Below, piece by piece: positions 31,599-48,788 of a DNA stretch of 64,000 nt. This stretch comes from Chroogloeocystis siderophila 5.2 s.c.1. Lineage in GTDB: Bacteria; Cyanobacteriota; Cyanobacteriia; Cyanobacteriales; Chroococcidiopsidaceae. The stretch's first letter is position 1; each line of letters begins with the position of its first letter. The position numbers were made by a program, and so were the translations under genes. A model generated the notes under the pieces. It did not search any database and was not told the origin of the DNA. It saw only the letters and a list, made by a program, of their open reading frames with translations. The stretch lies in NCBI RefSeq assembly GCF_001904655.1, contig NZ_MRCC01000019.1, forward strand, positions 1 through 64,000, in the 5' to 3' direction.

Positions 31599-32516
31599 AT
31601 GCTCAAATATAAAGCCGTAGATAGTAAGTTATCTATTTTAAATCAGCCTAGGCGAATTCAACTTAATTCTCCGCGCCGTCAATCACAATCAGTTCAAGGA
31701 CAATTGACAATCGAGCAATTTCAAGAGTTTTCTCTACCAGCATCCGAAATTAGGCAGTACATTGTAGAATCCCTAGAAGGTTCGGCGGTAAAAAAAGTAT
31801 GCCTGAATCCACAAATCGGTGAAGCGCAACTAGAGTTATGGGCAGATGCAGCCGCGCAAGCACGAAAGCCTGTATTTCTACGTATAGCCGTGATGGAGGC
31901 GTTGTATAAACATGACAACTCATTTCCTTGGCTGTGCAAGCGCCTTGCTGATTTTAGTGCGGCGGCGTTGTTGTTGATGCTACTAAGTCCTTTGCTATTA
32001 GTACTCATGTTGCTAGTGCGGCTTTATTCGCCTGGACCAATTTTCTTTCAGCAGTGGCGTGTCGGGCAAAGTGGTAAGTTATTCCGCATCTTTAAATTTC
32101 GCACGATGGTTGCGGATGCTGAAACGCAACATCATCAAGTTATGAAAAATCAGCAGGGATTACACAAGCTGAAGCACGATCCTCGCATTACACCCATGGG
32201 GCGTTGGATGCGCAAACTAAGCTTAGATGAATTACCGCAACTCATTAACGTATTACGGGGAGAAATGAGTTTGGTAGGACCGCGCCCGTGGGCGTTATAT
32301 GATGCACTGCGCTTGAGTCCTGACGGGCAAAAGCGACTCAATGCTTTACCAGGAATCACCGGAGAATGGCAAGTTCGCGCGCGATCGCACCTTTTAGAGT
32401 TAGATGTTGTCAATGAGATCGATCTAGAGTACTTACGCAATTGGAGTCTTTACCGAGACCTCAAAATTCTCCTGCTTACGATTCCTCGAGTGATCTTCGG
32501 CGTTGGTGCTTGTTAG
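31599..32516 (+). CDS. Polyprenyl glycosylphosphotransferase (WbaP/WcaJ-type, HepC-like)
   Basis: The 305-residue protein has a soluble N-terminal part (about 1-105), one hydrophobic helix (about 113-137, LADFSAAALLLMLL) and the C-terminal catalytic domain of bacterial sugar transferases. The latter contains GPIFFQQWRVGQSGKLFRIFKFRTM, KLSLDELPQLINVLRGEMSLVGPRP and LPGITGEWQVRAR. The enzyme would move a hexose-1-phosphate onto undecaprenyl phosphate, the first step of repeat-unit assembly. Its short N-terminus, without the four extra helices of WbaP, resembles the cyanobacterial HepC form used in envelope polysaccharide. It is the only priming enzyme in the window and heads the plus-strand block. 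Confidence 0.88.
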   Translation: MLKYKAVDSKLSILNQPRRIQLNSPRRQSQSVQGQLTIEQFQEFSLPASEIRQYIVESLEGSAVKKVCLNPQIGEAQLELWADAAAQARKPVFLRIAVMEALYKHDNSFPWLCKRLADFSAAALLLMLLSPLLLVLMLLVRLYSPGPIFFQQWRVGQSGKLFRIFKFRTMVADAETQHHQVMKNQQGLHKLKHDPRITPMGRWMRKLSLDELPQLINVLRGEMSLVGPRPWALYDALRLSPDGQKRLNALPGITGEWQVRARSHLLELDVVNEIDLEYLRNWSLYRDLKILLLTIPRVIFGVGAC

Positions 32517-32571: not shown

Positions 32572-34770
32572 ATGGAAGTAACAGAACTCGACCTTCATAA
32601 ATACTGGTACATTCTCAAACGTCGTTGGCTTCCTGCTGTTGCTGCGTTTGGCACTGTTATGGGTATTACTTATCTGCATACGTTATCAAGGGTGCCTATT
32701 TATCAAGCACAAGGAGAGCTACTCTTTAGACAAGATCGAAGCTCATCATTGATTGGCTTGCAGTCGGCGACGCAAGCCAATCCAACAACTCAGAACGACA
32801 CATCACTAGCAACCGAAGCAAAAGTCATCCGTTCTATACCAATCTTGCAACAAGCTTTAGAGCAGATCAACGAAGCTTCCCAAAACACAACCTTGAGCTT
32901 AGAAAGTTTGCGACAAGGCTTAGATATCGTTGCTGTTGAAGGAACGGAGATTCTGCAAGTTGTGTATCGAGGTGAAGAACCTGAGCAAGCGGCTTTGATT
33001 GTTAACCAATTAATGAACGTTTATGTGAGCAAAAATTTATTAAATAATCGTGCAGCTGCAATTTCAGCAGGTAACTTCATTACAGCACAGCTTCCGAAAG
33101 TCAAGGCAAATTTGCAACGTGCCGATTTAGCTGTACGCAACTTTAAGGAAAAAAACCAACTTACGAATATTGAGCAATCGCAAACAGCACTAGCAGCAAA
33201 CATCGAACGTGTTGGATCGCAGATTGATGCTGTGGAAGCACAACTTGTCGATTTAAATTCACGCACGCAAAGTCTTCAGCGCCAACTGGGAATGAATCCC
33301 CAGCAAGCAATGACGATCGCAACAATTAGCCAGTCATCAGCAATCCAAGGAGTATTAGCCGAATTACAAACTGTCCAGCGCCAGATTGCAGATGCGCGAT
33401 CGCGTTATCGAGACGATCATCCGATTCTTGATTCGCTACAAGAGCGAGAAGCACGATTTCAACAACTACTACAAACGCAAACTAATCAAGTTTTGCAAGG
33501 TCAAACGCCTAATGGTAACAATCAATTACAAGTAGGACAAATTCAGCAAGACCTGATTTCTGATTTAATCGCAGCCGAAATTGAGCGCCAAGGCTTAATT
33601 TCGCAACAAGCTACCTTAACTCAGCAACAAAAAGCTTATCTGCAAAAAGCGACTAATTTACCTCGGCTGGAACAGCAGCAACGTGAATTAGAACGCGAGT
33701 TATCTGCTGCGCAATCAACTTACGAAGCTCTCCTGAGAAGTTTACAAGAAATTAAAGTTATCGAAAACCGGACAGTTGGTAATGTCCAAATTATTGAATA
33801 TGCTCAAGTTCCTTCAGGAGCTATCAATGCTAGTAACACATCAGCATTAGCCGCTGGAAGCTTAGCAGGACTGATGATTGCTGGAGGTATTGTCTATCTT
33901 TTAGAGCTTACCGATAAAAAGATTAAAACGGCTAAAGAAGCTCGTGAAATTTTTGAATATAAATTACTTGGCACAATTCCACTTTTCCATAATGAATCTC
34001 AGACAGAACGTGAACAATGGCGAGTTCCCGTACTAGCTGAACCGCGATCGTTTATCACTGAAAGCTATCGAATGCTGCTAGCTAATCTTAAATTCCCTCC
34101 TTCGTTGGATCGCTCGTCTAGAGTCATTTTAGTAACAAGTTCTATCCCCAAAGAGGGTAAATCTACTACTTGTGCGAATTTAGCAGCAGTGATGGCATTG
34201 CTTAATTATAAGGTGTTAATTATCGATGCTGATTTACGTCATCCGTCTCAGCACCAGATCTGGGAGATTGCTAATCACATCGGGTTGATGAATACGATCA
34301 CCAAACGTGTTGGAGTTAATAAGAAGGCTATTCAGCCAGTTGCAAAAAATATAGACGTGCTCACAACAGGTACTTCTGAATCAGACTTAGGTATTTTAAT
34401 TGATTCTCGAAGTATGTCTACCTTAATTACGCAATATGCAAAACAATATGATTATCTCATCATTGATACTCCACCTTTAAGCATTGCTGCTGATGCCTCT
34501 ATTTTAAGTAAGGTTGTTGATGGTGTAATTTTAGTCACTCGACCAGGCATTGCAGACATCAGTAGTTCTAGGTTTGCTAAAGAATATCTTGACCAATCTG
34601 GACAAAATATTTTAGGTATTGTAGTTAATGGTATTCCTCTCGACAACACTCTTCATAGTTACTATAGGCATGTCGAAAACAATACTGATGCAGGATCAGA
34701 TTTTAAGCCATCAGACTTTATAAAAATCAAAGATTGGAGAAATACCTTGAGATTCTTTAGAAGACCATAA
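32572..34770 (+). CDS. wzc: Polysaccharide co-polymerase/tyrosine autokinase (Wzc)
   Basis: The 732-residue protein has an N-terminal Wzz domain with membrane helix 1 near residues 18-36, a long periplasmic coiled coil (about 170-390), membrane helix 2 near 425-447 and a cytoplasmic BY-kinase. Kinase motifs are Walker A IPKEGKSTT (about 524-532), Walker A' LIIDADLRHP (550-559) and Walker B YLIIDTPP (628-635). It would set chain length and drive export. The C-terminal tail has only the pair YY in LHSYYRHVE and no tyrosine cluster, unlike classical Wzc. It follows the priming enzyme by 55 bases and precedes a flippase by 8. Confidence 0.92.
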   Translation: MEVTELDLHKYWYILKRRWLPAVAAFGTVMGITYLHTLSRVPIYQAQGELLFRQDRSSSLIGLQSATQANPTTQNDTSLATEAKVIRSIPILQQALEQINEASQNTTLSLESLRQGLDIVAVEGTEILQVVYRGEEPEQAALIVNQLMNVYVSKNLLNNRAAAISAGNFITAQLPKVKANLQRADLAVRNFKEKNQLTNIEQSQTALAANIERVGSQIDAVEAQLVDLNSRTQSLQRQLGMNPQQAMTIATISQSSAIQGVLAELQTVQRQIADARSRYRDDHPILDSLQEREARFQQLLQTQTNQVLQGQTPNGNNQLQVGQIQQDLISDLIAAEIERQGLISQQATLTQQQKAYLQKATNLPRLEQQQRELERELSAAQSTYEALLRSLQEIKVIENRTVGNVQIIEYAQVPSGAINASNTSALAAGSLAGLMIAGGIVYLLELTDKKIKTAKEAREIFEYKLLGTIPLFHNESQTEREQWRVPVLAEPRSFITESYRMLLANLKFPPSLDRSSRVILVTSSIPKEGKSTTCANLAAVMALLNYKVLIIDADLRHPSQHQIWEIANHIGLMNTITKRVGVNKKAIQPVAKNIDVLTTGTSESDLGILIDSRSMSTLITQYAKQYDYLIIDTPPLSIAADASILSKVVDGVILVTRPGIADISSSRFAKEYLDQSGQNILGIVVNGIPLDNTLHSYYRHVENNTDAGSDFKPSDFIKIKDWRNTLRFFRRP

Positions 34771-34778
34771 TACTGAAT

Positions 34779-36059
34779 ATGCGAATGTTACAATTTTCTC
34801 CTAAAGCTATTTATTGGTGTAAAACCCTGAGTAAATTTGTTTCTGTACAATTAATCATTCAGGGGTTAGGTTTTATTAGTGGTCTTCTAATAGTTCGTAC
34901 TCTAGATAAGCAGCAGTACGCCTACTTTACGATTGCTAACACCATGCAAGGGTCTATGACTGTGTTATCGGATAGCGGTATTACTGCTGGTCTTTCAGCT
35001 ATTGGTGGTAGAGTTTGGCAAAATCGGGATCAGTTCAGTCAGTTGATCAATACTGCGCTGCAACTGAGAATATACTTATCTATTATCTCTGTTGTTGCTG
35101 TTACACCCATAACACTTTGGTTATTAATTAGTAATGGCGCATCAATTTTATCTGCAATTCTAATAGTAATCGTAATTATTCTAGGGTTAAATGCTCAGTT
35201 AACAATAGGAGTATTAGAAATTGTCCCCAGGCTTTACTCCCAAATCAATCGAATTCAAACTATAGAATTAGTACCTTCTGTTTCTCGCCTTGTCCTGTTA
35301 CTCTGCGCTTATTTTACATCTTTAAATGCCCTAATAGCTGTTTTCATCTCATCACTTTCACTGCTGCTCAAACGTTCTGTTCTTATTAAATGGGTTACTC
35401 AAAATATAGATAGCGAAGCAAAAACTAATCAAGACTACTACCATGAAATATTAGCAGTTATTAAATCTTTATCACCAAATACTATCTTTTATTGCATACA
35501 AGGACAAATTACAGTTTGGTTGATTAGTTTTTTCGGCAATACACAAAATATTGCAGAGGTTGGAGCTTTAAGTAGACTGGCTGTTATATTTTCTATCATT
35601 AATTCAGTAATAGCAGGTATAATCTCTCCCAGTTTTGCTCGTTGCCATTCAGTAACTTTGTTACACCGTAAATATTGGCAAATTGTAGGCATTTCTTGTT
35701 TTCTTGGTTTCTGTATATTAGTATTTATAGCTATTTTCCCTGTGCAGATACTTTGGCTCTTGGGCGAACAATACGCGCATTTACAGAATGAGTTATTTTT
35801 GATTGCATTAAGTACAATTTTTAGTCACGTAGTGGGAGTTATGTGGTCTTTAAATTGCTCAAAGGCATGGGTTTCTTATTCGTGGTTTTCAATTCCAAGT
35901 ACACTTACTACTCAGATTGCTTTACTCTTCTTAATAAATTTATCTACTATTGAAGGAGTAATTATGTTTGGAATTCTTTCTAATATCCCCTCTTTGGCTT
36001 TGAATATAGTATTGATGTACAAAGGTTTAGCTTCTTACAAAGCTTTGGATTTTGAATAG
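34779..36059 (+). CDS. Polysaccharide flippase (Wzx-like), second copy
   Basis: The 426-residue protein has about 12 membrane spans and an N-terminal pattern (FVSVQLIIQGLGFISGLLIVRTL, then YAYFTIANTMQG) of MOP-superfamily O-antigen flippases. It is shorter than the 497-residue flippase at 6589-8082 and does not look like a recent duplicate of it. Eight bases separate it from wzc, so it is probably translated as part of the same operon. It would flip a lipid-linked repeat unit made by the following glycosyltransferases. Confidence 0.82.
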   Translation: MRMLQFSPKAIYWCKTLSKFVSVQLIIQGLGFISGLLIVRTLDKQQYAYFTIANTMQGSMTVLSDSGITAGLSAIGGRVWQNRDQFSQLINTALQLRIYLSIISVVAVTPITLWLLISNGASILSAILIVIVIILGLNAQLTIGVLEIVPRLYSQINRIQTIELVPSVSRLVLLLCAYFTSLNALIAVFISSLSLLLKRSVLIKWVTQNIDSEAKTNQDYYHEILAVIKSLSPNTIFYCIQGQITVWLISFFGNTQNIAEVGALSRLAVIFSIINSVIAGIISPSFARCHSVTLLHRKYWQIVGISCFLGFCILVFIAIFPVQILWLLGEQYAHLQNELFLIALSTIFSHVVGVMWSLNCSKAWVSYSWFSIPSTLTTQIALLFLINLSTIEGVIMFGILSNIPSLALNIVLMYKGLASYKALDFE

Positions 36060-36116: not shown

Positions 36117-37007
36117 ATGAACGTGTTGGAGATACAGATAAGTGTCGCGTTGGTTACTCGAAATCGCCCTGAGTCGCTAAATCGTTGCTTGAAAAGTTTG
36201 CGATCGCAGAGCGTTCAACCTTTTGAAGTTATAGTGTCAGACGATTCTGATTTAGAATATGCTACAGCAACAGAGGCGATCGCCAAACAGTGGGACTGCC
36301 AATACATTAAAGGACCTAAACGTGGACTATACGCCAATCGCAATCATGCTGCACAAGCTTGCAAAGGGACTCATGTGCGAACCATGGATGACGATCACGA
36401 GTTTCCTGAAGACCATTTTCAAATACTTGAAGCTGTAGTTAAAGCAGATCCTCTTAGTATTTGGATTCTGGGTGAAAGCCATTACGATCAAATAGATTCT
36501 ACAACAGGAATAGCATATTTACCTGGAGAAATTCAACCTAGAGGATTTAGTCAACTTCCTCGCAATCTTGATGATACTTGTGCTATTAGTGATGGAGCGA
36601 CGATTTATCCACGAGCTATTTTCTCTTCTCACCATTACTTAGAGTTATTTAAATTTGGTAATCTTTATTTAGAGTTTGGAGCACGATTGAAAGCCTTGGG
36701 ATATCGGATTCGTTATTGCCCAAAAACATACATCATTCATCATTACATTCATGATAAACGTTCTTTCAATGATCAGAAAATGCAGCAGCAAACTGCTTTT
36801 TTAGCTGCACTTTTAACTTATGGTTGTTATTTACCTAACTTTTTTAAGTATGTAGAATGCTTAAGTTATTTTAGTTTGATAGGATTAATAAGTACCTTGA
36901 AAATCAAAGATTATCACTTTAATATTTTTGATTTGTGGAGATTGTGGATAGTAGGCAGAAAATACCAGGAGCTTTTTAACAAGCAAAACTATGCTCAAAT
37001 TATTTAA
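36117..37007 (+). CDS. Family 2 glycosyltransferase
   Basis: The 296-residue GT-A enzyme has VALVTRNRPESLNRCLKSL at the start, VIVSDDSD (about 38-45), an NRNHAAQACKG acceptor-side block and the metal-binding MDDDHEFP near residue 90. The second half holds HHYIHDKRSF, where family members place a substrate-contacting histidine. It sits between the flippase and a Uma2 gene in the plus-strand block. The donor sugar is unknown. Confidence 0.86.
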   Translation: MNVLEIQISVALVTRNRPESLNRCLKSLRSQSVQPFEVIVSDDSDLEYATATEAIAKQWDCQYIKGPKRGLYANRNHAAQACKGTHVRTMDDDHEFPEDHFQILEAVVKADPLSIWILGESHYDQIDSTTGIAYLPGEIQPRGFSQLPRNLDDTCAISDGATIYPRAIFSSHHYLELFKFGNLYLEFGARLKALGYRIRYCPKTYIIHHYIHDKRSFNDQKMQQQTAFLAALLTYGCYLPNFFKYVECLSYFSLIGLISTLKIKDYHFNIFDLWRLWIVGRKYQELFNKQNYAQII

Positions 37008-37114: not shown

Positions 37115-37843
37115 ATGTTCCTCACAGTCGAACAACTAGAAGCACAGCTACCCGATGCAACTCAGCTACTGAGTGACGAGCCAGAAATGGAAAGTTCTCT
37201 ACATTATCTGCAACTATTGTTGTTGGTTACGTGCTTAGAATGGCTGTGGCGCGAGCGAAACGATTACTTTATCGGTGCTAACTTGACAATTTACTACAGC
37301 AGGCAGCAACTACGCAATCGCGATTTTCGAGGACCAGACTTTTTTCTAGTACAACCCACAGAGAAACGTCCGCGTAAATCGTGGGTGGTTTGGGAAGAAG
37401 AAGGCAAATACCCTAACTTAATTATTGAGTTACTTTCTGATTCTACGGCTGGAGTAGATCGCACGCTCAAAAAGGAGCTTTACCAAAATCAGTTTCGCAC
37501 TCCAGAATACTTTTGGTTTTCCCCAGATACTTTAGAATTCCAAGGTTTTCGTCTTAGTGGTCAACACTATCAAGAAATCATGCCCAACGATGCAGGATGG
37601 CGTTGGAGCGAAGTGCTAAATCTGTATATAGGTATTGCTGAAGGTAAATTACGCTACTTTACATCGGATGGAAGCATAGTACCAACTCCTGAAGAAGCAG
37701 CTATACAGATACAACAACAAGCACAGCAGGCGCAACAACGTGCTGAGCAAGCAGAATCACAATTAGAGCAAGAGCAAGCGCGAGCAGAACGATTAGCTAA
37801 TCAACTGAAAGCTTTAGGAATTGAGCCAGATTTAGATAGTTGA
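37115..37843 (+). CDS. Uma2 family endonuclease-like protein
   Basis: The 242-residue protein has the cyanobacterial DUF820/Uma2 core, with RGPDFFLV, PNLIIELLSDST and FRTPEYFWFSPDT carrying the PD-(D/E)XK-type acidic and lysine positions. A glutamine- and glutamate-rich coiled coil (about 190-235) ends the protein. Members are numerous in cyanobacteria and their role is unclear; a DNA-cleaving or defence function is suspected from the fold. It interrupts the polysaccharide genes and has longer spacers on each side (about 107 and 305 bases). Confidence 0.85.
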   Translation: MFLTVEQLEAQLPDATQLLSDEPEMESSLHYLQLLLLVTCLEWLWRERNDYFIGANLTIYYSRQQLRNRDFRGPDFFLVQPTEKRPRKSWVVWEEEGKYPNLIIELLSDSTAGVDRTLKKELYQNQFRTPEYFWFSPDTLEFQGFRLSGQHYQEIMPNDAGWRWSEVLNLYIGIAEGKLRYFTSDGSIVPTPEEAAIQIQQQAQQAQQRAEQAESQLEQEQARAERLANQLKALGIEPDLDS

Positions 37844-38148: not shown

Positions 38149-39273
38149 ATGCAGAAGTTACTTATAGTATCAACTCCTCTACCTCCACATCCGTGCGGGC
38201 AGGGAAATTACACAGCGATGATCCGTCGGCACTGGCCGGATGAAAAAACAAAAGTTATCCATTTGGTTACAAGCGGAGCCATTGAATCAAGAAAGCATTT
38301 GGGTATAGATGATATTTATGATTTTCACAATAATTATGCTTCTTTTATGGCTCTGCTAGAGCGTTTTCCTGATGCAAATATTCTCTTACAGTATGCAGGC
38401 AGAGGATATCACAAATACGGCTGTCCTTATTGGTTGCCCTTAGCACTTAAGCAGTGGCGCAAAAAGCATCCTTCACAGTCGCTTTTAGTTATGTTCCACG
38501 AATTATGGGCTTCTTTACCTATATGGAAAAAGCATTTTTTAACTGAAACTTTAAATAGCAAAATCACCAAGGAGTTGATTAGCTTAGCAGATGCGGTTGG
38601 TTGCCTGACACTGCATCAAGCTGAGCGGCTTAGAGCGCTTGTTCCTAGTGCCAAAATTTCTTGGATTCCTGTTGGTACAAATATTATACCAACTGAATTT
38701 GTAGATGCTAGTTTTACTCAGCGATCGCCAAAAGAGTTTTTAATATTTGGGCTACAGTATACGCGGCTATTGACATTACAAGAATTATCAGATTCACTGA
38801 AAAAATTATATAGCAGAGGATTACTTGAGCAACTGCATTTAATTGGTCCATTAGAAACGCGATGGGACTCAGAAGAAAAACAGCTTTTAGCAGAAATACT
38901 TCCTACGCACGCCGTTAAATTTCACGGCGTCATTCCTCCAGAAAAAGTCTCTCAATTCCTGCATCGTGTTGGCTTTAGTATTATTGGTCAGCCGCCAGAA
39001 AATCTAACAAAATCAAGTACTTTCATGGCTTTTGCAAGTCATGCGTGCAATGTGATATCGCCCTATGCTGCTACCACTGCGGTAGAACCAGTTTGTTATT
39101 TAACCCACCCGCAAGAGTTGTTACAAAACAAATTTAGTGATGTTGAAAACGATTTAGCTGCGCGGGGACATAATTTATGGAACTGGTACAAAATTAACGC
39201 CGATTGGCAAACCAATACGAACAAAATAGCAAAAATGTTGCATAATGAGGATTTTTTAGCGATCGCTAGCTGA
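38149..39273 (+). CDS. Glycosyltransferase-like protein, tandem paralogue 1
   Basis: The 374-residue protein has a GT-B-like layout. The front reads STPLPPHPCGQGNYTAMI, with IQYAG-like LLQYAGRGYHKYGCPYWLPLAL and FHELWASLP in the middle, and VGTNIIP near the domain junction. At the place where GT4 enzymes have E-x7-E it has NLTKSSTFMAFASHACNVISPYA, lacking the usual acidic pair. It is clearly related to the next gene (39298-40434). I infer a divergent glycosyltransferase acting on the repeat unit. Confidence 0.7.
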   Translation: MQKLLIVSTPLPPHPCGQGNYTAMIRRHWPDEKTKVIHLVTSGAIESRKHLGIDDIYDFHNNYASFMALLERFPDANILLQYAGRGYHKYGCPYWLPLALKQWRKKHPSQSLLVMFHELWASLPIWKKHFLTETLNSKITKELISLADAVGCLTLHQAERLRALVPSAKISWIPVGTNIIPTEFVDASFTQRSPKEFLIFGLQYTRLLTLQELSDSLKKLYSRGLLEQLHLIGPLETRWDSEEKQLLAEILPTHAVKFHGVIPPEKVSQFLHRVGFSIIGQPPENLTKSSTFMAFASHACNVISPYAATTAVEPVCYLTHPQELLQNKFSDVENDLAARGHNLWNWYKINADWQTNTNKIAKMLHNEDFLAIAS

Positions 39274-39297
39274 TTTCAAGATGTTTATATACTCGTA

Positions 39298-40434
39298 GTG
39301 AATTTAATGACATCAGTTATTTCTCATAACTCTAGCCAGCATTCATCGCCAATTACAATTGTATTACCTCAGTTACCGCCTACAATTTGTGGTGTAGGTG
39401 ATTACACTTTTAATCTTGTTACAGCTTGGTCAAATATTTCAGAATTTAATTATTTAGTTGTTAGAGGTTTAGACGAATCAAAAGCTCAATATCCCCAACT
39501 CGCTGTCCATCAGCTTGAATGCAATAAAGAATTATTTGTATCTCAACTCAAAAAGCTAGCACCTCAACAGCTTCTAATTCAATATAGCGGTTATGGGTTT
39601 CATTCTTTAGGATGTCCAGTATGGTTATCAAAAGCATTAACTCAATGGCGAAAAGATAATGATGGAAAACTTGTCATTATCTTTCATGAACTTTGGCATA
39701 AATCTCCCTGGTGGAATAAACATTTTCTGCTACAAGAAGGATTACATCGTTGGAGTATCAAGCGCTTAGCAAGCATTGCTGACAGTATTTTTACGACGAC
39801 TTCAGACTATGTAGAATGGTTGAAAAGTTTTTCTCCTCAAGCCGCAGTTAAGTTGCTACCTGTTGGCTCCAACATTGTACCTAATCAGCAGCGATCGCAT
39901 TGCGCTACGCAACCTGGTGTTTTTGTGTTGTTCGGGATGCAAGGAAACCGTATTAATACGCTTCAGCAAGTGCAAAGCGAAATCAAAAAACTATACAATT
40001 CTGGGCGCTTGAAGAAACTATTATTAATTGGGGGAGGTAACAGCGAAGAGTTGGAAATAGTAGAGAAAGAACTCTTAGAAAAAACTCTTCCTCACAATAC
40101 TTACTCTTGTATAGGAATTGCTTCTAACCAAACAATTTCAACAATTTTATCACAAGCTGAATTTGGAATTTCTACTCAAAGCCCGCAGAGTTTTACAAAG
40201 TCTGGCACGTTCATGGCATATGCTGCACATGGTCTGAATATCCTTTCGCCATATGCCTCAAAACAAAGCCAAAAACCTTTCTGCTGGTTAACACATCCCA
40301 GCGAATTTGAGCAGCATTCAGATTTTTTAAATAACTCTTTAAAAGAGCGATCGCGTAACTTACAGCTTTGGTACAACGACACCTGCAATTGGTCTGTAAT
40401 TGCCCAAGAAATTAAAGATGCATTTACTTCATAA
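39298..40434 (+). CDS. Glycosyltransferase-like protein, tandem paralogue 2
   Basis: The 378-residue protein shares with its neighbour the blocks QYSGYGFHSLGCPVWLSKAL, FHELWHKSPWW, VGSNIVP, SFTKSGTFMAYAAHG and CWLTHP. The E-x7-E position again reads as KSGTFMA. The pair lies 24 bases apart, which suggests duplication followed by divergence to handle two different sugars or two steps. The last 17 bases overlap the next gene. Confidence 0.7.
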   Translation: MNLMTSVISHNSSQHSSPITIVLPQLPPTICGVGDYTFNLVTAWSNISEFNYLVVRGLDESKAQYPQLAVHQLECNKELFVSQLKKLAPQQLLIQYSGYGFHSLGCPVWLSKALTQWRKDNDGKLVIIFHELWHKSPWWNKHFLLQEGLHRWSIKRLASIADSIFTTTSDYVEWLKSFSPQAAVKLLPVGSNIVPNQQRSHCATQPGVFVLFGMQGNRINTLQQVQSEIKKLYNSGRLKKLLLIGGGNSEELEIVEKELLEKTLPHNTYSCIGIASNQTISTILSQAEFGISTQSPQSFTKSGTFMAYAAHGLNILSPYASKQSQKPFCWLTHPSEFEQHSDFLNNSLKERSRNLQLWYNDTCNWSVIAQEIKDAFTS

Positions 40435-41515
40435 AAATCAAGCGGAAACTGTAGATTCCCAGAATAGAAAAAAGATAAAAGTTTTGATAGTGAGTCCATG
40501 CCAAGGTATTTATGGAGGCATGGAAGCTTTTGTTCTTACTCTAGCTCAATCTCTTAGTCAAAATCTCGCTTTAGAAGTAAGACTTTGCTTTAAGCGCGTT
40601 AAAGGATTTGCACTACAGGATAATCTGCAAGTTATGTGCCAAAAAAGCCAAGTACCTTTCTCCTTTGTAGACAAGGGAAGTATAGCTTTAATTCAACAAA
40701 TAGCTTGGGCAGATATTGTACACGGACAGAATACATCTCCAGATGTCATTTTATTGGCGCGACTTTTGGGTAAACGTGTAGTATTAACAATTCATAACTA
40801 TTGGTGTAAACGAGGTTGGGGTATTTATTCTGCAATTTGGAAAGTTGTAGCCAATTTTGCCCATCTGCGGCTATATAACTCTAACTTTGTTTGGCAAACT
40901 TGGGAGCCACACGTCAAGTCACATAAAAGTAGTAGAGTCCCTACTGTTTCTCAGCTTCCCGAAGGGAGATTAGCAATTAACCAACGTAACGGATTTGTCT
41001 TTCTAGCGCGTTGGATTCAAAACAAAGGTATTGAAGTATTAGTCAAAGCATATGCTCAAGCCAACCTAGATCGACGGAAGTGGTCTTTAAAACTAATGGG
41101 AGATGGGCCACTACGCGCTGATATAGAAAATTACATAAAACAGCAGAAAATTGATGGAATAGAAATTTTAGGATTTGTCAATGATGAAAAAAAAGCAGAA
41201 GTCATTCGTTCTTCTCGCTGGATAGTTATACCACCCCATACAAAAGAAGATTTTGGATTGACAGCACTTGAAGCAAGAAATGTTGGTGTTCCTTGTATTA
41301 TCACTCGTGACGGTGGTTTACCAGAAGCCGCAGGACGCTATTCCTTAAGTTGTGAACCTAATAATGTTGAGCAGCTAGCGCACCTCCTTGAAGTCGCAGC
41401 AAATATGTCAGAGGAGGAATATAAAACATTAGCAAACGCTTCGTATCAAGAATTAAAAATGTATCTAAAACCAATTTCATTTTATGTAGAAAAATATGAA
41501 TCTCTTCTTGCCTAA
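40418..41515 (+). CDS. GT4 glycosyltransferase
   Basis: From the ATG at 40418 the protein has 365 residues; a TTG at 40400 is also open but offers no better ribosome binding site. It has VLIVSPCQGIYGGMEAFVLTLA at the front, FLARWIQNKGIEVLVKAYAQ at the start of the C-terminal Rossmann domain, and the E-x7-E motif in KEDFGLTALEARNVGVPCI. The start overlaps the end of the tandem paralogue by 17 bases, so translation is probably coupled. It is a cytoplasmic repeat-unit glycosyltransferase of unknown donor. Confidence 0.86.
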   Translation: MHLLHKNQAETVDSQNRKKIKVLIVSPCQGIYGGMEAFVLTLAQSLSQNLALEVRLCFKRVKGFALQDNLQVMCQKSQVPFSFVDKGSIALIQQIAWADIVHGQNTSPDVILLARLLGKRVVLTIHNYWCKRGWGIYSAIWKVVANFAHLRLYNSNFVWQTWEPHVKSHKSSRVPTVSQLPEGRLAINQRNGFVFLARWIQNKGIEVLVKAYAQANLDRRKWSLKLMGDGPLRADIENYIKQQKIDGIEILGFVNDEKKAEVIRSSRWIVIPPHTKEDFGLTALEARNVGVPCIITRDGGLPEAAGRYSLSCEPNNVEQLAHLLEVAANMSEEEYKTLANASYQELKMYLKPISFYVEKYESLLA

Positions 41516-42584
41516 GATGAATTGCTTCAATACTTATTCTCTATTTATCAAAACTATGAAGGAAATGAATACTTTCTCAACAAACAAACAGTCAGTTTTA
41601 ATTACCGGAGCAGCAGGATTTTTAGGAACGTATTTAGCTCAAGTATGTGTTGATGCTGGTTATCAAATATATGGAATAGATCATAAGTTACCGAAGAACC
41701 TTGAACTTTGGACTAATTTTGTTCAAAGCTCTACTTCTCAAGTCGATTTTAAGGCTTTTCTACACAATGTTGAACTAGCTGTATGTTTCCATTTAGCAGG
41801 TTCAGCCTTAGTTGCTTACTCGATTCAAGAACCTTTTCAAGACTTTAATAAACTTCTACCTGGAACTGCAAAGCTACTTGAATACATTGTACGTAATCAG
41901 CCGCAGTGTCATTTTATTTTGTTTTCAAGTGCAGCAGTCTACGGGAATCCCAAGGTTTTGCCAATTTCAGAAACTGAGTTACCGGCTCCCATTTCACCGT
42001 ATGGAGTTCATAAACAACTTGCTGAAAGCCTTCTCCAAAGCTATTCTGCGATTTATGGAATTACGTGTTCCATTTTAAGAATCTTCTCAGCTTACGGAGT
42101 TGGTCTTAGAAAACAGCTATTTTGGGATATTTTATCTAAGTACTACGAACAAGCACCACAGGAGCAGCAAAGTATTACTCTGTTTGGCACCGGTAACGAA
42201 TCTCGTGATTTTATTCATGGGTTTGATATTGCTAGAGCAGCAATTTTAGTCAATCAAAATCCCCAACCCAAACAAGTTCAAATTATCAATATTGCTAACG
42301 GACAAGAAGTTACTATCAAAGATGCGGCATTTAATTTGTTCAAATCGTTTCCTGAAGAAGTAAAAATTCATTTTAATAATCAAGTTCGTCCAGGAGATCC
42401 ATCTCGATGGGTCGCAGATATTTCTAAATTAACAGCAATGAATTACAAACCAACTATTAAATTAAGCAACGGATTAGGAGAATATGCACTTTGGTACAGA
42501 AATCAAAGATATCAAGAATTTGTGTCTGTTCCGCAAAAGCTTGTTCAGCATGCTGCACCTGTAGAACTTTCTTCTCGAAAATAA
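41496..42584 (+). CDS. NAD-dependent epimerase/dehydratase (extended SDR)
   Basis: The 362-residue frame starts at ATG 41496, overlapping the previous gene by 20 bases; later ATGs at 41556 and 41565 would start closer to the fold and are also possible. It has GAAGFLGTY (38-46) for NAD, SSAAVYG, and YGVHK with Tyr169 and Lys173. Members epimerise or dehydrate nucleotide sugars. In this block it probably supplies one precursor of the polymer. It is distinct from the SDR at 22241-23254. Confidence 0.85.
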   Translation: MNLFLPKMNCFNTYSLFIKTMKEMNTFSTNKQSVLITGAAGFLGTYLAQVCVDAGYQIYGIDHKLPKNLELWTNFVQSSTSQVDFKAFLHNVELAVCFHLAGSALVAYSIQEPFQDFNKLLPGTAKLLEYIVRNQPQCHFILFSSAAVYGNPKVLPISETELPAPISPYGVHKQLAESLLQSYSAIYGITCSILRIFSAYGVGLRKQLFWDILSKYYEQAPQEQQSITLFGTGNESRDFIHGFDIARAAILVNQNPQPKQVQIINIANGQEVTIKDAAFNLFKSFPEEVKIHFNNQVRPGDPSRWVADISKLTAMNYKPTIKLSNGLGEYALWYRNQRYQEFVSVPQKLVQHAAPVELSSRK

Positions 42585-42605: not shown

Positions 42606-43841
42606 ATGCTATTACTGTCTCACCCTACTGGAAATGCAAATGTTCGCGGTGCTATTTCCGCTTTAGAACAAGCAGAAAAGCTATCTTTGTATCAAACTAC
42701 AGTAGCAGTACATCAGTCAGACTGGTATTTTAAATTACTACCAACTGCTGTTAAGCAAGAACTTCTTAGGCGCACTTATCCGCTTCCGAGATGTAAGATT
42801 AATCAACATCCATTTCGGGAATTAGCTAGATTAGTATCGCTGAAAATAGGCTTGCAGTTCCTCATTACTCATGAAACAGGATGGGCATCGATTGACTCGG
42901 TTTATGGTAGTTTAGATAGAATTTTAGCAAAGCAACTTACAACTTACTATAAGAAATATCAAATTGCTGGTGTTTACTGTTATGAGGACGCAGCAATTTA
43001 TACTTTTAAAGCGGCTAAAAAGCTAGGGTTAACTTGTTTTTACGATCTACCAATTGGCTATTGGAAAATGGGACAGATCATTCAGCAAGAAGAAGCTGAA
43101 TTAAACCCAGAGTGGTCGTCTACCCTACAAGCTAACTTTGATAGTGCTGATAAATTAGCACGCAAAGATATAGAATTACAGATGTCAGATGTTGTCTTAG
43201 TTGCTAGTAGTTTTACTCGTCAGACATTACAGTTAGCGCCAGATTTCAAAGCACCTGTAGTTTGCATTCCTTATGGAGCGCCTTGTAGCTATACTGAAGT
43301 TGTAAATCGCCATAAACTTAATGAAAATAAATTAAAAGTTTTATTCGTTGGAAGTTTGAGTCAGCGTAAAGGTATTTCTTATCTTTTAGATGCAGTTGAA
43401 CAGTTAGGCGATCGCGCTGAGTTAACTTTAATTGGTAGATTCAATCAGTTGTGTTCTCCTTTAGAACAAGCCTTAGTAACGCATCGTTGGATTGCGTCAC
43501 TTCCGCATCAGCAAGTTTTACAAGAAATGAGTCATCATGATGTCTTTGTCTTTCCGTCACTCTTTGAAGGGTTTGGGTTAGTCATTCTCGAAGCAATGGC
43601 GCAGGGTTTACCTGTCATTACCACACCGCACACCGCTGGTCCCGATATCATTACTGATGGTGAAGATGGCTTTATTGTCCCAATTCGCTCAGCAGAAGCG
43701 ATCGCGCAAAAACTTAACCTTTTAGCATCCAACCGCAAACGACTTCTAGAAATGAGCCAAGCCGCTTTACAAAAAGCATCACAATATACTTGGAAACGCT
43801 ATGGAGAATGTTTAGTTAAAACTATTCAAAACTATGTATAA
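42606..43841 (+). CDS. GT4 glycosyltransferase
   Basis: The 411-residue GT-B protein carries VLFVGSLSQRKGISYLLDAV, the donor-domain start, and the strong GT4 signature FEGFGLVILEAMAQGLPVITT. A long N-terminal domain with HPTGNANVRGAISAL and FYDLPIGYWKMG would bind the acceptor. It lies 21 bases after the epimerase and 14 bases before the polymerase gene. Its role is addition of one sugar to the lipid-linked unit. Confidence 0.88.
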   Translation: MLLLSHPTGNANVRGAISALEQAEKLSLYQTTVAVHQSDWYFKLLPTAVKQELLRRTYPLPRCKINQHPFRELARLVSLKIGLQFLITHETGWASIDSVYGSLDRILAKQLTTYYKKYQIAGVYCYEDAAIYTFKAAKKLGLTCFYDLPIGYWKMGQIIQQEEAELNPEWSSTLQANFDSADKLARKDIELQMSDVVLVASSFTRQTLQLAPDFKAPVVCIPYGAPCSYTEVVNRHKLNENKLKVLFVGSLSQRKGISYLLDAVEQLGDRAELTLIGRFNQLCSPLEQALVTHRWIASLPHQQVLQEMSHHDVFVFPSLFEGFGLVILEAMAQGLPVITTPHTAGPDIITDGEDGFIVPIRSAEAIAQKLNLLASNRKRLLEMSQAALQKASQYTWKRYGECLVKTIQNYV

Positions 43842-43855
43842 ACTATCAACATACT

Positions 43856-45172
43856 ATGCTTTATAATTCTCCTGCTTTAGCTTCTAAAGTGAATACCAAT
43901 ATAAAATATATTAAATATTTCATCTGGCTATACTTAGTATTATTAATATTTGAAGGTGCTTTAAGAAAATGGATCGCACCACAACTATCTGCACCTTTAT
44001 TAGTTATTAGAGATCCTCTCATTATTGGAATTTTTCTTCTAGCTTATAAAAATAATTTATTTCCTAAAGACATATTCACTCGCTCAATTATTTTATTAGG
44101 GTTTGTTTCTTTTTTAGGAGGTTTATTTACTGTAATTACTGCGGACAGTAGCTTAACAGTCACTTTGTTTGGACTGCGGACTAACTTTTTACATTTACCC
44201 TTAATCTTCCTGATCCCCAAAGTCTTTAATATTGAAGATGTCAAAAAGATAGGTTGGTGGCTTCTTGTTTTGGCTATTCCTATGACTATTTTGATGGTTA
44301 TACAGTTCAATTCCCCATCCGATGCTTTTATTAATACGGTTGCAGGTGGAGAGGGTAAACAAATCGATTCTGCAATGGGAAAGATTCGCCCACCAGGGAC
44401 GTTTTCCTTTATTACAGGTGCTGTTCAGTATTTCGCTTTAGTGACTTCCTTTGTTTTGTATGGACTTATCCAGAGTAAAACATATCCTACCTGGCTATTA
44501 ACTGCTACAGGATTAAGTTTAGTTGTCGCTGTTGTGAGTTCAGGAAGTCGTAGCGCGATCGCTTCGATCGCAACAGTAATCATATCGCTATTCGTTGCTA
44601 TGTTAAGTAGACCGCAATTAGCTATTAAGTCTTATCGATTGCTTGTTGTTATTATCATCGTCAGCGTCGGCTTAAGATTTGTGCCTTCTTTTAACGAAGC
44701 AGTTGAGATTCTGGATACGAGAATTGACAGCGCCAACACAGCTGAAGCAAGAAGTGGAGGTCCTTTAGGAAGATTTTTGGCAAGCTTTTCAGAACCTTTT
44801 CAGAACTTAGACGCAGTTCCTTTTTTGGGTCATGGACTCGGTATGGGGACAAATGCCGGATCGGCTTTGATCATAGGAAAAGCTGAATTTTTACTTGCGG
44901 AAGGAGAATGGGCAAGAATCATTCTTGAAAGTGGTTTCTTGTTAGGCTTACTATTTATTGTGTGGAGAATTGCCCTAATGTGCTGGATGGGTAAGGTTTG
45001 CGTAGAATGCGCTGCTAAGGGAAATATTTTACCTTTACTACTTTTTGGTTCTTCTGCCTTATTGATACTAAATGGGCAATTTGGTCAGCCTACAACTTTG
45101 GGATTTACAGTTTTTGGCAGTGGTATTTGTTTGGCAGCTTGCCGTACTAACATACCAAAATATGCGAAATGA
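43856..45172 (+). CDS. O-antigen polymerase-like membrane protein (Wzy), second copy
   Basis: The 438-residue protein has about ten to eleven membrane spans. Between two late helices is a loop with NTAEARSGGPLGRFLASFSEPF, and upstream GKIRPPGTFSFITG. These are the periplasmic arginine-rich loops of Wzy-type polymerases. Together with the flippase at 34779-36059 and wzc it completes a Wzx/Wzy route on the plus strand, separate from the polymerase at 4317-5552. It overlaps the following GT4 by four bases. Confidence 0.78.
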   Translation: MLYNSPALASKVNTNIKYIKYFIWLYLVLLIFEGALRKWIAPQLSAPLLVIRDPLIIGIFLLAYKNNLFPKDIFTRSIILLGFVSFLGGLFTVITADSSLTVTLFGLRTNFLHLPLIFLIPKVFNIEDVKKIGWWLLVLAIPMTILMVIQFNSPSDAFINTVAGGEGKQIDSAMGKIRPPGTFSFITGAVQYFALVTSFVLYGLIQSKTYPTWLLTATGLSLVVAVVSSGSRSAIASIATVIISLFVAMLSRPQLAIKSYRLLVVIIIVSVGLRFVPSFNEAVEILDTRIDSANTAEARSGGPLGRFLASFSEPFQNLDAVPFLGHGLGMGTNAGSALIIGKAEFLLAEGEWARIILESGFLLGLLFIVWRIALMCWMGKVCVECAAKGNILPLLLFGSSALLILNGQFGQPTTLGFTVFGSGICLAACRTNIPKYAK

Positions 45173-46296
45173 AGATTTTACTACTTGGCAATTATTTACC
45201 AGATCGACAAGAAAGTATGCTGCGATTTGCGCAGATCCTGCAAACGGGTTTGACTCAGCGAGGTCATGAAGTTCGTTTAGTTCAACCACAACCTATTTTT
45301 GGTAAATTAAAACTATCAAGTTTCGGATTAGTAAAATGGCTTGGTTATATAGATAAATTTTTACTATTTCCTCAACAACTGTGTCAAGCGATCGCATGGG
45401 CGGATGTTGTCCATATCTGCGACCACTCTAATGCTATGTACGCCAAATATTTGGAGAACGTACCGCATCTAGTAACGTGTCACGATTTACTTGCCGTACG
45501 CGGCGCATTAGGTGACGATACCGATTGTCCAGCATCAATGACAGGAAAAGTTTTACAAAATTGGATTCTTAAAAGTTTGCAAAAAAGCCAAATGGTTGTT
45601 TGTGTTTCTTCATCGACAAAACACGATCTTGAAAAGCTGATCGAGAATTCCTTGTTTACTAAAAAAATTCGTTTAGTATTGAACGGACTAAATTATAGCT
45701 ACAAGCAAATTTATCGAGACGAAGTTGATTCTAGACTAGCAAATATAATTGAATTAGATTTATCCAAGCCTTTTATTCTTAATGTTGGTTCAAGCCTTAA
45801 GCGGAAAAATCGCGATGGAATTATGAGAATTTTCTCTAAAATTAAGGAACAATGGGATGGGCAATTAATTTTTGCTGGCGAAGCTTTGACCACTGAGCAA
45901 ATTCAACTTGCTGAGCAACTCAATATTAAAGAGCAAATTATCCAAATTATCAAACCTGATAACAATTTACTAGAGGCACTTTATAATCGGGCATTTGTAT
46001 TTCTATTTCCTTCAAAATGCGAAGGTTTTGGCTGGCCTGTGATTGAGGCGCAGGCTTGTGGTTGCCCTGTTATTTGTAGCGATCGCACTTCTCTTCCCGA
46101 AGTCGTGGGCGACTCAGCTTTAATGAGATCTATAGAAGATGAATCTGGATTTGCAGAAGATATTTTACGTTTAGTAGATCCCGTAGAACGTCATCTTTGG
46201 ATTCAAAAAGGTTTGAATAATATCAAACGTTTTACTTTAGATGAAATGATTGATCAATATAACCAACTTTACATTGAGTTAGTTAAATATAAATGA
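45169..46296 (+). CDS. GT4 glycosyltransferase
   Basis: The 375-residue protein has LLLGNYLPDRQESMLRFA at the start, FILNVGSSLKRKNRDGI at the donor domain and CEGFGWPVIEAQACGCPVIC as the E-x7-E site. It begins inside the end of the polymerase gene (ATGA overlap) and ends with a four-base overlap into the acyltransferase gene, so three genes are translationally coupled. The sugar is unknown. Confidence 0.88.
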   Translation: MKILLLGNYLPDRQESMLRFAQILQTGLTQRGHEVRLVQPQPIFGKLKLSSFGLVKWLGYIDKFLLFPQQLCQAIAWADVVHICDHSNAMYAKYLENVPHLVTCHDLLAVRGALGDDTDCPASMTGKVLQNWILKSLQKSQMVVCVSSSTKHDLEKLIENSLFTKKIRLVLNGLNYSYKQIYRDEVDSRLANIIELDLSKPFILNVGSSLKRKNRDGIMRIFSKIKEQWDGQLIFAGEALTTEQIQLAEQLNIKEQIIQIIKPDNNLLEALYNRAFVFLFPSKCEGFGWPVIEAQACGCPVICSDRTSLPEVVGDSALMRSIEDESGFAEDILRLVDPVERHLWIQKGLNNIKRFTLDEMIDQYNQLYIELVKYK

Positions 46297-46958
46297 AACA
46301 GCTTTTCATGTTGCTGAGCTTATTTCTACCATGGTTGATTCGGCGTTGGCTATTAGAAATAGCTTTCGGCTATCAAATTCATCCAACGAGTAGAATTGGC
46401 TTTGCTTGGGTTTTTCCTCAATACTTAATTATGGAAGCTCATTCGAGTATTGGACACTTTACCGTGTGCAAAAGTGTAGATTCTGTGCATCTCAAGCAAT
46501 CTGCTGCCATAGGTAAAGGTAATTGGATTACAGGCTTTCCGCTAAATTCTAAAATTCATTTTATACATGAAATAGACCGCAAGCCGCAACTGGTTCTAGG
46601 CGAACATTCCGCAATTACTAATCGCCATTTAATTGATTGTACAAATTCAGTTATTATTGGCAATTTTTCAACTTTTGCTGGCTTCCAATCACAGATTTTA
46701 TCTCATAGTATTGACCTTGAATCATGCCGACAATCATCTGCGCCTATTAGCATTGGTAATTATTGCTTTATTGGCACAAACTGCGTACTATTAGGAAATA
46801 GTTCGTTACCTGACTATTCCGTGCTTGGAGCCAAATCTTTACTCAACAAAAAATACACAGATTCTTATTACTTATACGCTGGAGTGCCAGCAAAACCTAT
46901 TAAGCAGTTATCCAAGCAACTATTATATTTTTCTCGTCCGGTTGGTTTTGTTAATTAG
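46293..46958 (+). CDS. Hexapeptide acyltransferase
   Basis: The 221-residue protein has the beta-helix pattern (for example IGHFTVCKSV, IGKGNWITGF, IGNYCFIGTNCVLLGNSSL) and ends with AGVPAKPIKQL. Repeats are interrupted by an insertion around residues 85-105 (HFIHEIDRKPQLVL). The N-terminal 30 residues are hydrophobic. It lies in a run of coupled genes and probably acetylates a sugar of the plus-strand polymer. The acceptor cannot be defined. Confidence 0.8.
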   Translation: MKQLFMLLSLFLPWLIRRWLLEIAFGYQIHPTSRIGFAWVFPQYLIMEAHSSIGHFTVCKSVDSVHLKQSAAIGKGNWITGFPLNSKIHFIHEIDRKPQLVLGEHSAITNRHLIDCTNSVIIGNFSTFAGFQSQILSHSIDLESCRQSSAPISIGNYCFIGTNCVLLGNSSLPDYSVLGAKSLLNKKYTDSYYLYAGVPAKPIKQLSKQLLYFSRPVGFVN

Positions 46959-46974
46959 TACTAAGAACTAGAAT

Positions 46975-48132
46975 ATGCGAATTCTTTGGACGATCGCATC
47001 GGTTGATCCTGCTAGTGGGGGACCGATTGAAGCAGTAAAGCAAATGAGTGAATTACTAAACAGCCGAGGCTGCATAAGTGAAGTCGCGTGTCTTGATTCG
47101 CCAAATGCACCGTGGTTGAAAACATTTCCGTTGAAAGTTCATGCATTAGGACCTGGAATCACAGGTTATGGGTACTCAGCCAATTTTGTACCTTGGTTAA
47201 AACACAACGCGCGTAATTATGACTGTGCGATCGCTAACGGAATTTGGCAATATTCTAGTTTTGGAACGTGGTTGGCTTTACGCAATACCAACACGCCTTA
47301 TTTTGTCTTTACTCACGGAATGCTCGATCCTTGGTTCAAACGCACTTATCCCCTCAAACATTTAAAAAAATGGCTTTATTGGCCCTGGGCAGACTATCAA
47401 GTATTGCGCGACGCACGCGCCGTTTTTTTTACTTGCGAAGAAGAACGCCTGTTAGCCCGTCAATCGTTTTGGTTATACAAATGCCATGAAGTTGTTGTCA
47501 ACTTTGGTACAGCAGCACCTCAAGGAAACCCAACGCTACAACGGCAACAATTTCTCCTTCAGTTTCCTCAACTATCGCATAAACGCCTATTCTTATTTCT
47601 CAGTAGAATTCATATCAAAAAAGGTTGCGATCTTCTCATTCAAGCATTTGCCAAAGTCGCAAGCCTTGATGATTCGCTACATCTTGTCATAGCAGGTCCC
47701 GATCAAACTGGTTGGCAAGCCGAACTACAACAGCAAGCAGAAAAATTAGGTATAAGTCAGAAAATTACTTGGACAGGAATGTTGTCAGGTAATGTAAAGT
47801 GGGGTGCATTTCACGCGGCGGAAGTTCTTGTACTACCTTCGCATCAAGAAAACTTTGGTATTGTCGTAGCTGAAGCTATGGCGTGTGGAACCCCAGTTTT
47901 AATTTCTAATAAAGTGAATATTTGGCGGGAAATTTTAGCAGCTAAAGCAGGGTTAGTGGCTAGCGACGATTTAAATGGCACTACACAAGTATTACACACA
48001 TGGTTAACGATGTCGCCTCAAGAACAACAGCGTATGCGACAAAATGCTAAATACTGTTTTACACAAACATTTGAGATTCACCAAGCAGCCGAAAGTTTAT
48101 TAAATGCCATTAATACAAACAGCATGAGGTAG
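46975..48132 (+). CDS. GT4 glycosyltransferase
   Basis: The 385-residue GT-B enzyme reads SGGPIEAVKQMSELL at the N-terminus, THGMLDPW in the first domain, FLFLSRIHIKKGCDLLIQAF at the donor domain, and ENFGIVVAEAMACGTPVLIS as the E-x7-E motif. It resembles the minus-strand GT4 at 1242-2426 in these blocks. This hints at a shared sugar or linkage in the two clusters. It is 16 bases after the acyltransferase. Confidence 0.88.
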   Translation: MRILWTIASVDPASGGPIEAVKQMSELLNSRGCISEVACLDSPNAPWLKTFPLKVHALGPGITGYGYSANFVPWLKHNARNYDCAIANGIWQYSSFGTWLALRNTNTPYFVFTHGMLDPWFKRTYPLKHLKKWLYWPWADYQVLRDARAVFFTCEEERLLARQSFWLYKCHEVVVNFGTAAPQGNPTLQRQQFLLQFPQLSHKRLFLFLSRIHIKKGCDLLIQAFAKVASLDDSLHLVIAGPDQTGWQAELQQQAEKLGISQKITWTGMLSGNVKWGAFHAAEVLVLPSHQENFGIVVAEAMACGTPVLISNKVNIWREILAAKAGLVASDDLNGTTQVLHTWLTMSPQEQQRMRQNAKYCFTQTFEIHQAAESLLNAINTNSMR

Positions 48133-48209: not shown

Positions 48210-48788
48210 ATGGATTATCAGATACAAAATCTCAAAGAATTTAGATTACCACACAATTTTCGGGGCAAACCAGGATGGTATGTACAACTTTGGTGGTTAG
48301 TCCAGTCTACTTTATTTGGTTTATCGCCACAGTTTATGTATGCTTGGCGACGATGGCTACTCAAAGCTTTTGGTGCAACTGTTGGGCAAAAAGTGTTAAT
48401 TCGACCTACCGCGAGAATTACTTATCCTTGGAAAGTTCAGATTGGCGATTATAGTTGGATTGGTGACGATGTAGTTTTGTATAGTTTGGGTGACATAGCG
48501 ATCGGCAATAATGTTGTCATTTCTCAACGTTCGTATCTTTGTGCTGCGAGTCATGATTACAATTCTTCGTCTTTTGATATCTTTGCTAAGCCAGTACGCA
48601 TTGAGGATGAAGTTTGGCTAGCGACAAATGTGTTTGTGGCACCTGGAGTTACCATCGGGAAAGGCGCAGTAGTAGGCGCGTGTAGTAGCGTTTTTCGCTC
48701 GCTTCCTTCAATGATGATTTGTACTGGATGTCCTGCCCAGCCTTTACGTAGAAGGGAAAAGCAAACTGTGGTTTTGACAAGTAACTAA
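48210..48788 (+). CDS. wcaF: WcaF-like O-acetyltransferase
   Basis: The 192-residue protein has the family front KPGWYVQLWWLVQSTLFGLSP, a short helix region, and beta-helix repeats IGDYSWIGDDVVLYSLGDIAIGNNVVISQ followed by AASHDYNS, which holds the catalytic histidine. WcaF-type enzymes add acetyl groups to colanic-acid-like repeat units. Size (about 190 residues) is normal for the family. It is the last acyltransferase of the plus-strand block and is separated from wcaI-like 49095-50420 by about 306 bases. Confidence 0.85.
   Translation: MDYQIQNLKEFRLPHNFRGKPGWYVQLWWLVQSTLFGLSPQFMYAWRRWLLKAFGATVGQKVLIRPTARITYPWKVQIGDYSWIGDDVVLYSLGDIAIGNNVVISQRSYLCAASHDYNSSSFDIFAKPVRIEDEVWLATNVFVAPGVTIGKGAVVGACSSVFRSLPSMMICTGCPAQPLRRREKQTVVLTSN

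Follow-up and report, generated by a model that had tools for sequence, protein, structure and literature searches.

Organization of the locus

The window is a stretch of 64,000 nucleotides from Chroogloeocystis siderophila 5.2 s.c.1 (contig NZ_MRCC01000019.1, positions 1 to 64,000). It contains an exopolysaccharide gene cluster in which two neighboring genes, here called A and B, encode putative GT-B glycosyltransferases of a type named HE/KS after a His-Glu and a Lys-Ser pair (Table 1). The initial annotation had described tandem glycosyltransferase paralogues at 38149-40434, and exactly these coordinates contain two open reading frames (ORFs), one of 374 aa and one of 378 aa, whose nearly full-length pairwise alignment (37% identity over 360 positions, E 1e-76) is far beyond chance. 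An alternative start for B at the ATG at 39307 would give 375 aa, and the GTG at 39298 may not be the true start. Among the sequence blocks quoted as shared, FHELW is common to both proteins, GYGFHSLGCPVW is the version of B and GRGYHKYGCPYW that of A, and TKSGTFMA occurs in B only, A having TKSSTFMA. The genome of the window has only these two copies (of four matches with E no higher than 1, the remaining two have E 0.05 and 0.25). Patterns near the pair that resemble promoters or terminators were within the range of shuffled sequences.

Table 1. Genes of the cluster and residues discussed in A and B, by position in the window
Feature	Position	Strand	Basis or remark
HepC-like initiating sugar-phosphate transferase	31599..32516	+	NF045514 above cut-off; PF02397
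Wzc-like chain-length/export protein	32572..34770	+	GNVR and AAA_31 domains
Wzx-like membrane protein (putative)	34779..36059	+	no Pfam match; homologue upstream of A in L002
GT2 glycosyltransferase	36117..37007	+	Pfam
Uma2-type putative nuclease gene	37115-37843	+ (strand of A)	PF05685; between GT2 and A
Gene A, HE/KS-type GT-B glycosyltransferase (putative)	38149..39273	+	374 aa; ORF call, A/B alignment, model
A H117-E118, 'HE' of FHELW, GT4 histidine column	38497..38502	+	invariant in 9 A/B rows; MAFFT column
A R206, conserved basic residue past first C-domain strand	38764..38766	+	A/B rows
A K288-S289, K-S at ExFG position	39010..39015	+	MAFFT alignment, A/B rows
Gene B, HE/KS-type GT-B glycosyltransferase (putative)	39298..40434	+	378 aa from GTG; ORF call, A/B alignment, model
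B H130-E131, 'HE' of FHELW	39685..39690	+	family counts, MAFFT column, A/B rows
B R218, conserved basic residue	39949..39951	+	family counts; A/B rows
B K301-S302, K-S at ExFG position	40198..40203	+	family counts; MAFFT
GT4a, GT4 with E-x7-E	40418..41515	+	probable ATG 40418; longest frame from TTG 40400; analysed from 40454
NAD-dependent sugar epimerase/dehydratase	41496..42584	+	domain matches
GT4b	42606..43841	+	Pfam, homologue comparison
Wzy-like polymerase (putative)	43856..45172	+	PF04932 under cut-off
GT4c	45169..46296	+	Pfam, homologue comparison
Hexapeptide-type acyltransferase 1	46293..46958	+	just under Pfam cut-off
GT4d	46975..48132	+	nearest NCBIfam model HpsP, under cut-off
Hexapeptide acyltransferase 2	48210..48788	+	Pfam, homologue comparison
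GT4-type protein, last collinear cassette gene	49095..50420	+	Pfam, homologue comparison

In the test for a Wzx/Wzy cluster, the initiating transferase and the Wzc-like protein were clear, the Wzy match fell below the cut-off and the Wzx candidate had no Pfam match; the names Wzx and Wzy are putative here. GT4a, as a reading frame, shares positions 40400-40434 with the end of B, suggesting translational coupling, and GT4a also follows B directly in two contigs of Chthoniobacterales (L001 and L002). The initiating transferase (31599-32516) passes the NCBIfam model HepC, which refers to heterocyst development, despite lying in a general exopolysaccharide cluster. Two plasmid records, from Planctomyces and Paludisphaera, match its gene over half of the query. 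The Uma2-type gene holds the same place in G002, a genome of the same genus, and 10 of the 10 plasmid records that match it belong to genera which are presumably cyanobacterial.

Much of the cluster recurs in another phylum. A genome of Verrucomicrobiota (G512, stretches L087 and L088) contains ten of its genes in the same order, on one strand and with 35-54% identity, namely A, B, GT4a, GT4b, Wzy, GT4c, the first acyltransferase, GT4d, the second acyltransferase and the last GT4-type gene. Genes for FkbM-type methyltransferases are inserted there before GT4a and GT4b, and one for another methyltransferase before Wzy. No homologues of the window's Wzc, Wzx and GT2 were found in the two G512 stretches, and none of its epimerase in these stretches or in L001. 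The whole cassette is present in G002. A cassette common to two phyla has most likely spread horizontally; among the open-access papers that a search brought up, no title or opening of an abstract indicated a study of exopolysaccharide gene transfer between these two phyla.

Predicted fold and database matches

The initial annotation had proposed fold prediction as a check, and the fold of A and B, as modelled, is GT-B of the GT4 type. The AlphaFold2 models, each based on an alignment of 5 sequences, were of fairly high confidence, with pLDDT 82.1 and pTM 0.84 for A and pLDDT 81.2 and pTM 0.82 for B. By Foldseek, GlgM was the top match of the B model (E 1.8e-13), followed by PimB'. By VIA-align, the top match of both models was the mannosyltransferase ManT (7qsg), which we take to belong to GT4 (Z 24.0, rmsd 3.7 and 319 residues aligned for A; Z 23.4, rmsd 3.4 and 318 aligned for B). 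The next matches include GlgM, PimA, BshA, MshA and Anabaena HepE, and BaBshA (2jjm), which is titled as GT4, gave Z 22.1 with the A model and 20.9 with the B model. PimB', GlgM, BshA, MshA and HepE are presumably also GT-B enzymes of the GT4 kind. A and B resemble these five and ManT in their GT-B fold (about 295-341 residues aligned), their N-domain His and their helix register. They differ in having no Glu at either position of the E-x7-E pair, which is treated as the donor-binding signature of GT4, and no match to PF00534 (Glycos_transf_1) or PF13692 (Glyco_trans_1_4) in the Pfam scan; identity in the listed structural alignments is 7-17%.

Sequence searches placed the proteins less closely. 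PF13439 scored 15.8 bits on A and 12.7 bits on B, under its cut-off of 28.5, and matched 13 of the 36 family members scanned at E up to 0.1. NCBIfam gave no match for A and a single chance-looking one for B, a PHROGs search gave nothing useful, and among solved structures the chains listed were chance-looking matches only, both with A and B (phmmer) and with a profile of 36 relatives. No relative of B was found among phages and viral contigs, and one distant relative was found among plasmids, in Halotia branconii. When the family was compared with five GT4 proteins, profile against profile, the probability was 0.3%.

Residues at the donor site

The donor motif of ordinary GT4-type proteins was tabulated in a control set of 40 distinct ORFs. 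The window's own genome has 41 PF00534 places, and the ORFs come from the surroundings of all but one of them (49782-50282 in the window). At least one acid is kept in all 40 of them, the two E-x7-E positions being E/E in 30, D/E in 3, T/E in 2 and E/L, E/Q, E/G, A/D and F/E in one each. Thirty-five of these ORFs (300-460 aa) were combined with 12 hand-picked HE/KS rows, that is, the A/B pair and ten other relatives, in an unconstrained MAFFT alignment, and the same rows were used for the branch tree described below.

The absence of the E-x7-E pair from A and B, as claimed in the initial annotation, is confirmed by this alignment: the column of the first Glu holds F299 in B and L in A, and that of the second holds A307 in B and A294 in A. 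Throughout the 12 HE/KS rows the first Glu is replaced by L or F, bridging relatives having T, S, C or I instead, and the second by Ala, Ser or Thr. The K-S pair (R-N in L048) is aligned with the 'FG' of ExFG, which lies between the acidic positions, and is thus no one-for-one stand-in for the acids.

Residue frequencies were obtained with an HMM built from a 36-row alignment whose members, A and B included, are among the ORFs counted; before counting, 71 hits were reduced to 70 distinct ORFs, 69 of which have at least 20 bits and were used. Among the 46 distinct ORFs with at least 200 bits (A and B included), the position of K301 in B is K in 45 and R in one, and that of S302 is S in all 46. 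H130 is H in 45 with one gap, E131 is E in 44, D in one and a gap in one, and R218 is R in 41. In the set of 69, K301 is K in 63, R in three and a gap in three, and the residues of B are kept in 64 ORFs at S302, 67 at H130, 66 at E131 and 44 at R218. Comparison of the two sets marks R218 as a trait of the close family, and HE and K-S as traits of the wide family. The substituted motif had originally been given as KSxTFMA; its K-S is indeed fixed, but its TFMA part is not, since T304 is T in 9/46 ORFs and M306 is M in 9/46. H, E, R, K and S are invariant in nine A/B rows, two of which are those of the window, and only four positions are fixed differently in A and B, differences so few that the alignment does not reveal the sugars handled. 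The F-G of the C-domain, otherwise conserved, is altered in the A copy of G512.

The His of the HE pair lies in a column shared with GT4, where 26 of the 35 GT4-type rows also have His, and H117 of A and H130 of B may lie in the donor/acceptor cleft. The following residue is Glu in 12/12 HE/KS rows versus one of the 26 GT4-type rows having His. That single own-genome row, a GT4-type ORF with 'WHEP' (L127:613-1893), has Ala/Asp at E-x7-E, whereas each of the other 39 tabulated ORFs has Glu at one position or both, a single hint, not proof, that gain of HE and loss of the acids are coupled. Because the HE/KS rows form one branch, such a coupled change may be one event.

Position of the HE/KS branch

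In a tree with the motif columns kept, many long branches and a bootstrap correlation of 0.989 (0.99 wanted), the 12 HE/KS proteins form one branch (96/94) versus the 35 own-genome GT4-type ORFs. The HE/KS character requires one change on this tree, and none of 500 shuffles was as low. Both this tree and the orthologue tree of A and B (below) were midpoint-rooted, for drawing only. Three bridging proteins, L083 (E 2.3e-19), L086 (E 2.2e-16) and L043 (E 5.4e-13), pass the cut-off of PF00534 and carry HE and K-S; their acid columns contain Ala together with Thr (L083, L086) or Gly/Cys (L043). The occurrence of the same K-S in GT4-type proteins that Pfam recognises indicates that the branch is linked to GT4 and does not stand alone. 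These proteins also settle the register of K-S: as the profile-profile link is weak, the register rests on MAFFT with the bridges and on hmmalign of the bridges, hmmalign leaving the window's A/B pair unaligned in this region. A search of structures with L083 and L043 (phmmer) returned canonical GT4 enzymes and CapJ, K-S being absent from the alignments of 4 of the 9 chains listed.

A longer family with K-S (L083, L084, L085, L086 and L031) was observed in relatives of the window's genome. Its members are GT4-type proteins with the pattern TLKS[GS]SLL...HGLPV, which resemble A and B in having K-S and no acids, and L083, L084 and L086 share HE as well. They differ from A and B in their longer frames (416-439 aa), and L083 and L086, the two that were scanned, pass PF00534, unlike A and B.

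The divergent GT-B branch suspected from the outset is thus supported by the GT-B fold in both models, the sub-threshold Pfam matches and the separate tree branch. A and B are sister enzymes that probably transfer sugars, and their branch, part of a common family, has no name. With both acids lost and the HE/KS set fixed, it was not assigned by any of the Pfam and NCBIfam models applied. No description of it was found in the accessible portions of the open-access literature on E-x7-E, GT4 and inverting GT-B enzymes, on heterocyst polysaccharide clusters and on alr2834-alr2839, a silence that is a weak sign of novelty.

Distribution, age and constraint of the pair

Relatives at E up to 1e-5 occur in 21 of 100 related genomes and in 22 of 386 genomes of a phylum sample, two samples that overlap and whose counts each include the window's own genome. 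The adjacent pair was found in these samples only in G000 and in G002, of the same genus. G001, also of the same genus, has no match to B at E 1e-5 and one weak profile match. A single-copy relative in G013 (L024, G013:C1:5523637-5524550) is split over two open frames of 146 and 248 aa and looks broken.

Outside this phylum, a scan of 84,980 species (one genome each) with degenerate patterns for short B peptides, which gives a lower bound, led to at least two confirmed contigs of Chthoniobacterales: L002, with A and B, and L001, with B and the last part of an A-like gene, truncated where the contig stops. In a sample of 288 Verrucomicrobiota genomes, 19 genomes matched the profile, some of them falsely, and the A/B pair was present in G446 (the genome of L002) and in G512. 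A candidate tandem pair in G480 was rejected, both ORFs being ordinary GT4s, and the 19 matching genomes of the 288 therefore include false relatives.

In the orthologue tree, which has one long branch (the A copy of L002) and three rows of odd make-up, the A copies group across phyla (100/94) and so do the B copies (95/86). Since A and B each have their own Verrucomicrobiota orthologues, the duplication predates the spread of the cassette and, judged from these sequences, is old. The tandem pair itself is real, but the initial statement that it was duplicated in place is misleading if taken as recent; a recent local duplication runs against the orthologue tree. The initial interpretation is partly supported, being right on the branch, too narrow on the motif and misleading on the duplication. 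Relative to G002, dN is 0.055 and dS 0.43 for A, and dN is 0.035 and dS 0.26 for B. The lower dN in both cases indicates purifying selection on A and B, and decay of one copy was rejected with a dN/dS of about 0.13 in both.

Possible functions of A and B

A and B are probably two active, non-redundant glycosyltransferases that have a rebuilt donor site and assemble the repeat unit of an exopolysaccharide of the Wzx/Wzy type. This is supported by the GT-B/GT4 fold of both models, the retention of HE and K-S across the family, the K-S register given by the bridges, the single branch, purifying selection, the tandem pair and cassette in Verrucomicrobiota and the neighbors, which are probable parts of a Wzx/Wzy-type pathway. 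Catalysis and the role of each residue are what we infer: each protein would extend the lipid-linked repeat unit by one sugar. In the rebuilt site, the C-domain lacks the E-x7-E acids, K-S stands where the helix begins that in other GT4 proteins bears the second acid, and a Glu lies beside the conserved N-domain His. K-S and the conserved Arg might hold the donor diphosphate, and the HE pair might orient or activate the sugar or the acceptor. Points against this reading are the low profile-profile probability, the models from 5 sequences and the F-G change in the A copy of G512; no member of the HE/KS family with known activity was found. The branch offers a clean system for how donor choice or stereochemistry shifts within one fold, and in a conserved cassette with an old pair, polysaccharide linkage analysis could assign both enzymes.

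Studies of GT4 enzymes, a family described as ranking among the best characterised of glycosyltransferases and also among the most heterogeneous (PMC13104830), provide a frame for this reading. GnaT, a GT4 enzyme, is reported to lose nearly all activity when its first Glu is replaced by Ala and to be less active when the second is changed (PMC12856342), so the loss of both in A and B could mean no catalysis. The first Glu is described as near the anomeric carbon and the second as contacting ribose in a model of GumH (PMC13104830); with neither Glu present, the HE/KS family must hold ribose and sugar differently. The GT4-type rhamnosyltransferase WsaF is reported to have Pro for the first Glu, and its second Glu, E333, binds 2-deoxyribose (PMC3898925). 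WsaF, which like A and B has lost the first Glu, is a precedent for a GT4 enzyme that works without it, and it differs from them in keeping the second after a Pro-rich stretch (PHPSYPPLE), where A and B have the K-S stretch and Ala (PMC3898925).

A switch of mechanism, with the Glu of HE serving as catalytic base, may be considered tentatively; A and B would then be GT-B enzymes that invert, in contrast to the retaining GT4s. The presence of this Glu beside the N-domain His in every HE/KS row and in a single GT4-type row having His would fit such a switch. However, HE may merely position the donor, the nearest folds are those of GT4-type enzymes, which we take to be retaining, and with the HE/KS rows in one branch the coupling may be a single event. 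The loss of both C-domain Glu, one of which lies near the anomeric carbon in the GumH model, also favors a switch, and the xanthan pathway is described as having the retaining GT4 enzyme GumH alongside the inverting GT-B enzyme GumI (PMC13104830). GumI (GT94) is similar to A and B in being a GT-B enzyme that is not part of GT4 and acts in an exopolysaccharide pathway with undecaprenyl-linked intermediates (PMC13104830). Compared by description only, its modelled diphosphate contacts include Lys165, Ser241 and Thr243, and no adjacent K-S is among those given (PMC13104830). In a wider and rather doubtful proposal, HE/KS would be a distinct glycosyltransferase family in which the key acid has left E-x7-E in the C-domain for HE in the N-domain, the diphosphate is bound by the helix-start K-S and stereochemistry or donor class has changed relative to GT4, with an old A/B pair in a two-phylum cassette.

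It is unlikely that one or both proteins are non-catalytic pseudo-glycosyltransferases that scaffold or regulate GT4a. Both acids are lost, A and B are adjacent, and GT4a comes next in the window, G002, L002 and L001 (A tail only) and one gene further on in G512; however, H, E, R, K and S are kept in 9/9 A/B rows, and HE/KS relatives without an adjacent partner exist. That A and B are ordinary GT4 enzymes with a drifted donor motif and a functionally meaningless K-S is very improbable: GT4 is heterogeneous, 10 of the 40 own-genome ORFs are not E/E and WsaF is reported to have Pro at the first Glu (PMC3898925), but K-S is fixed across distant relatives and every one of the 40 own-genome ORFs keeps at least one acid.
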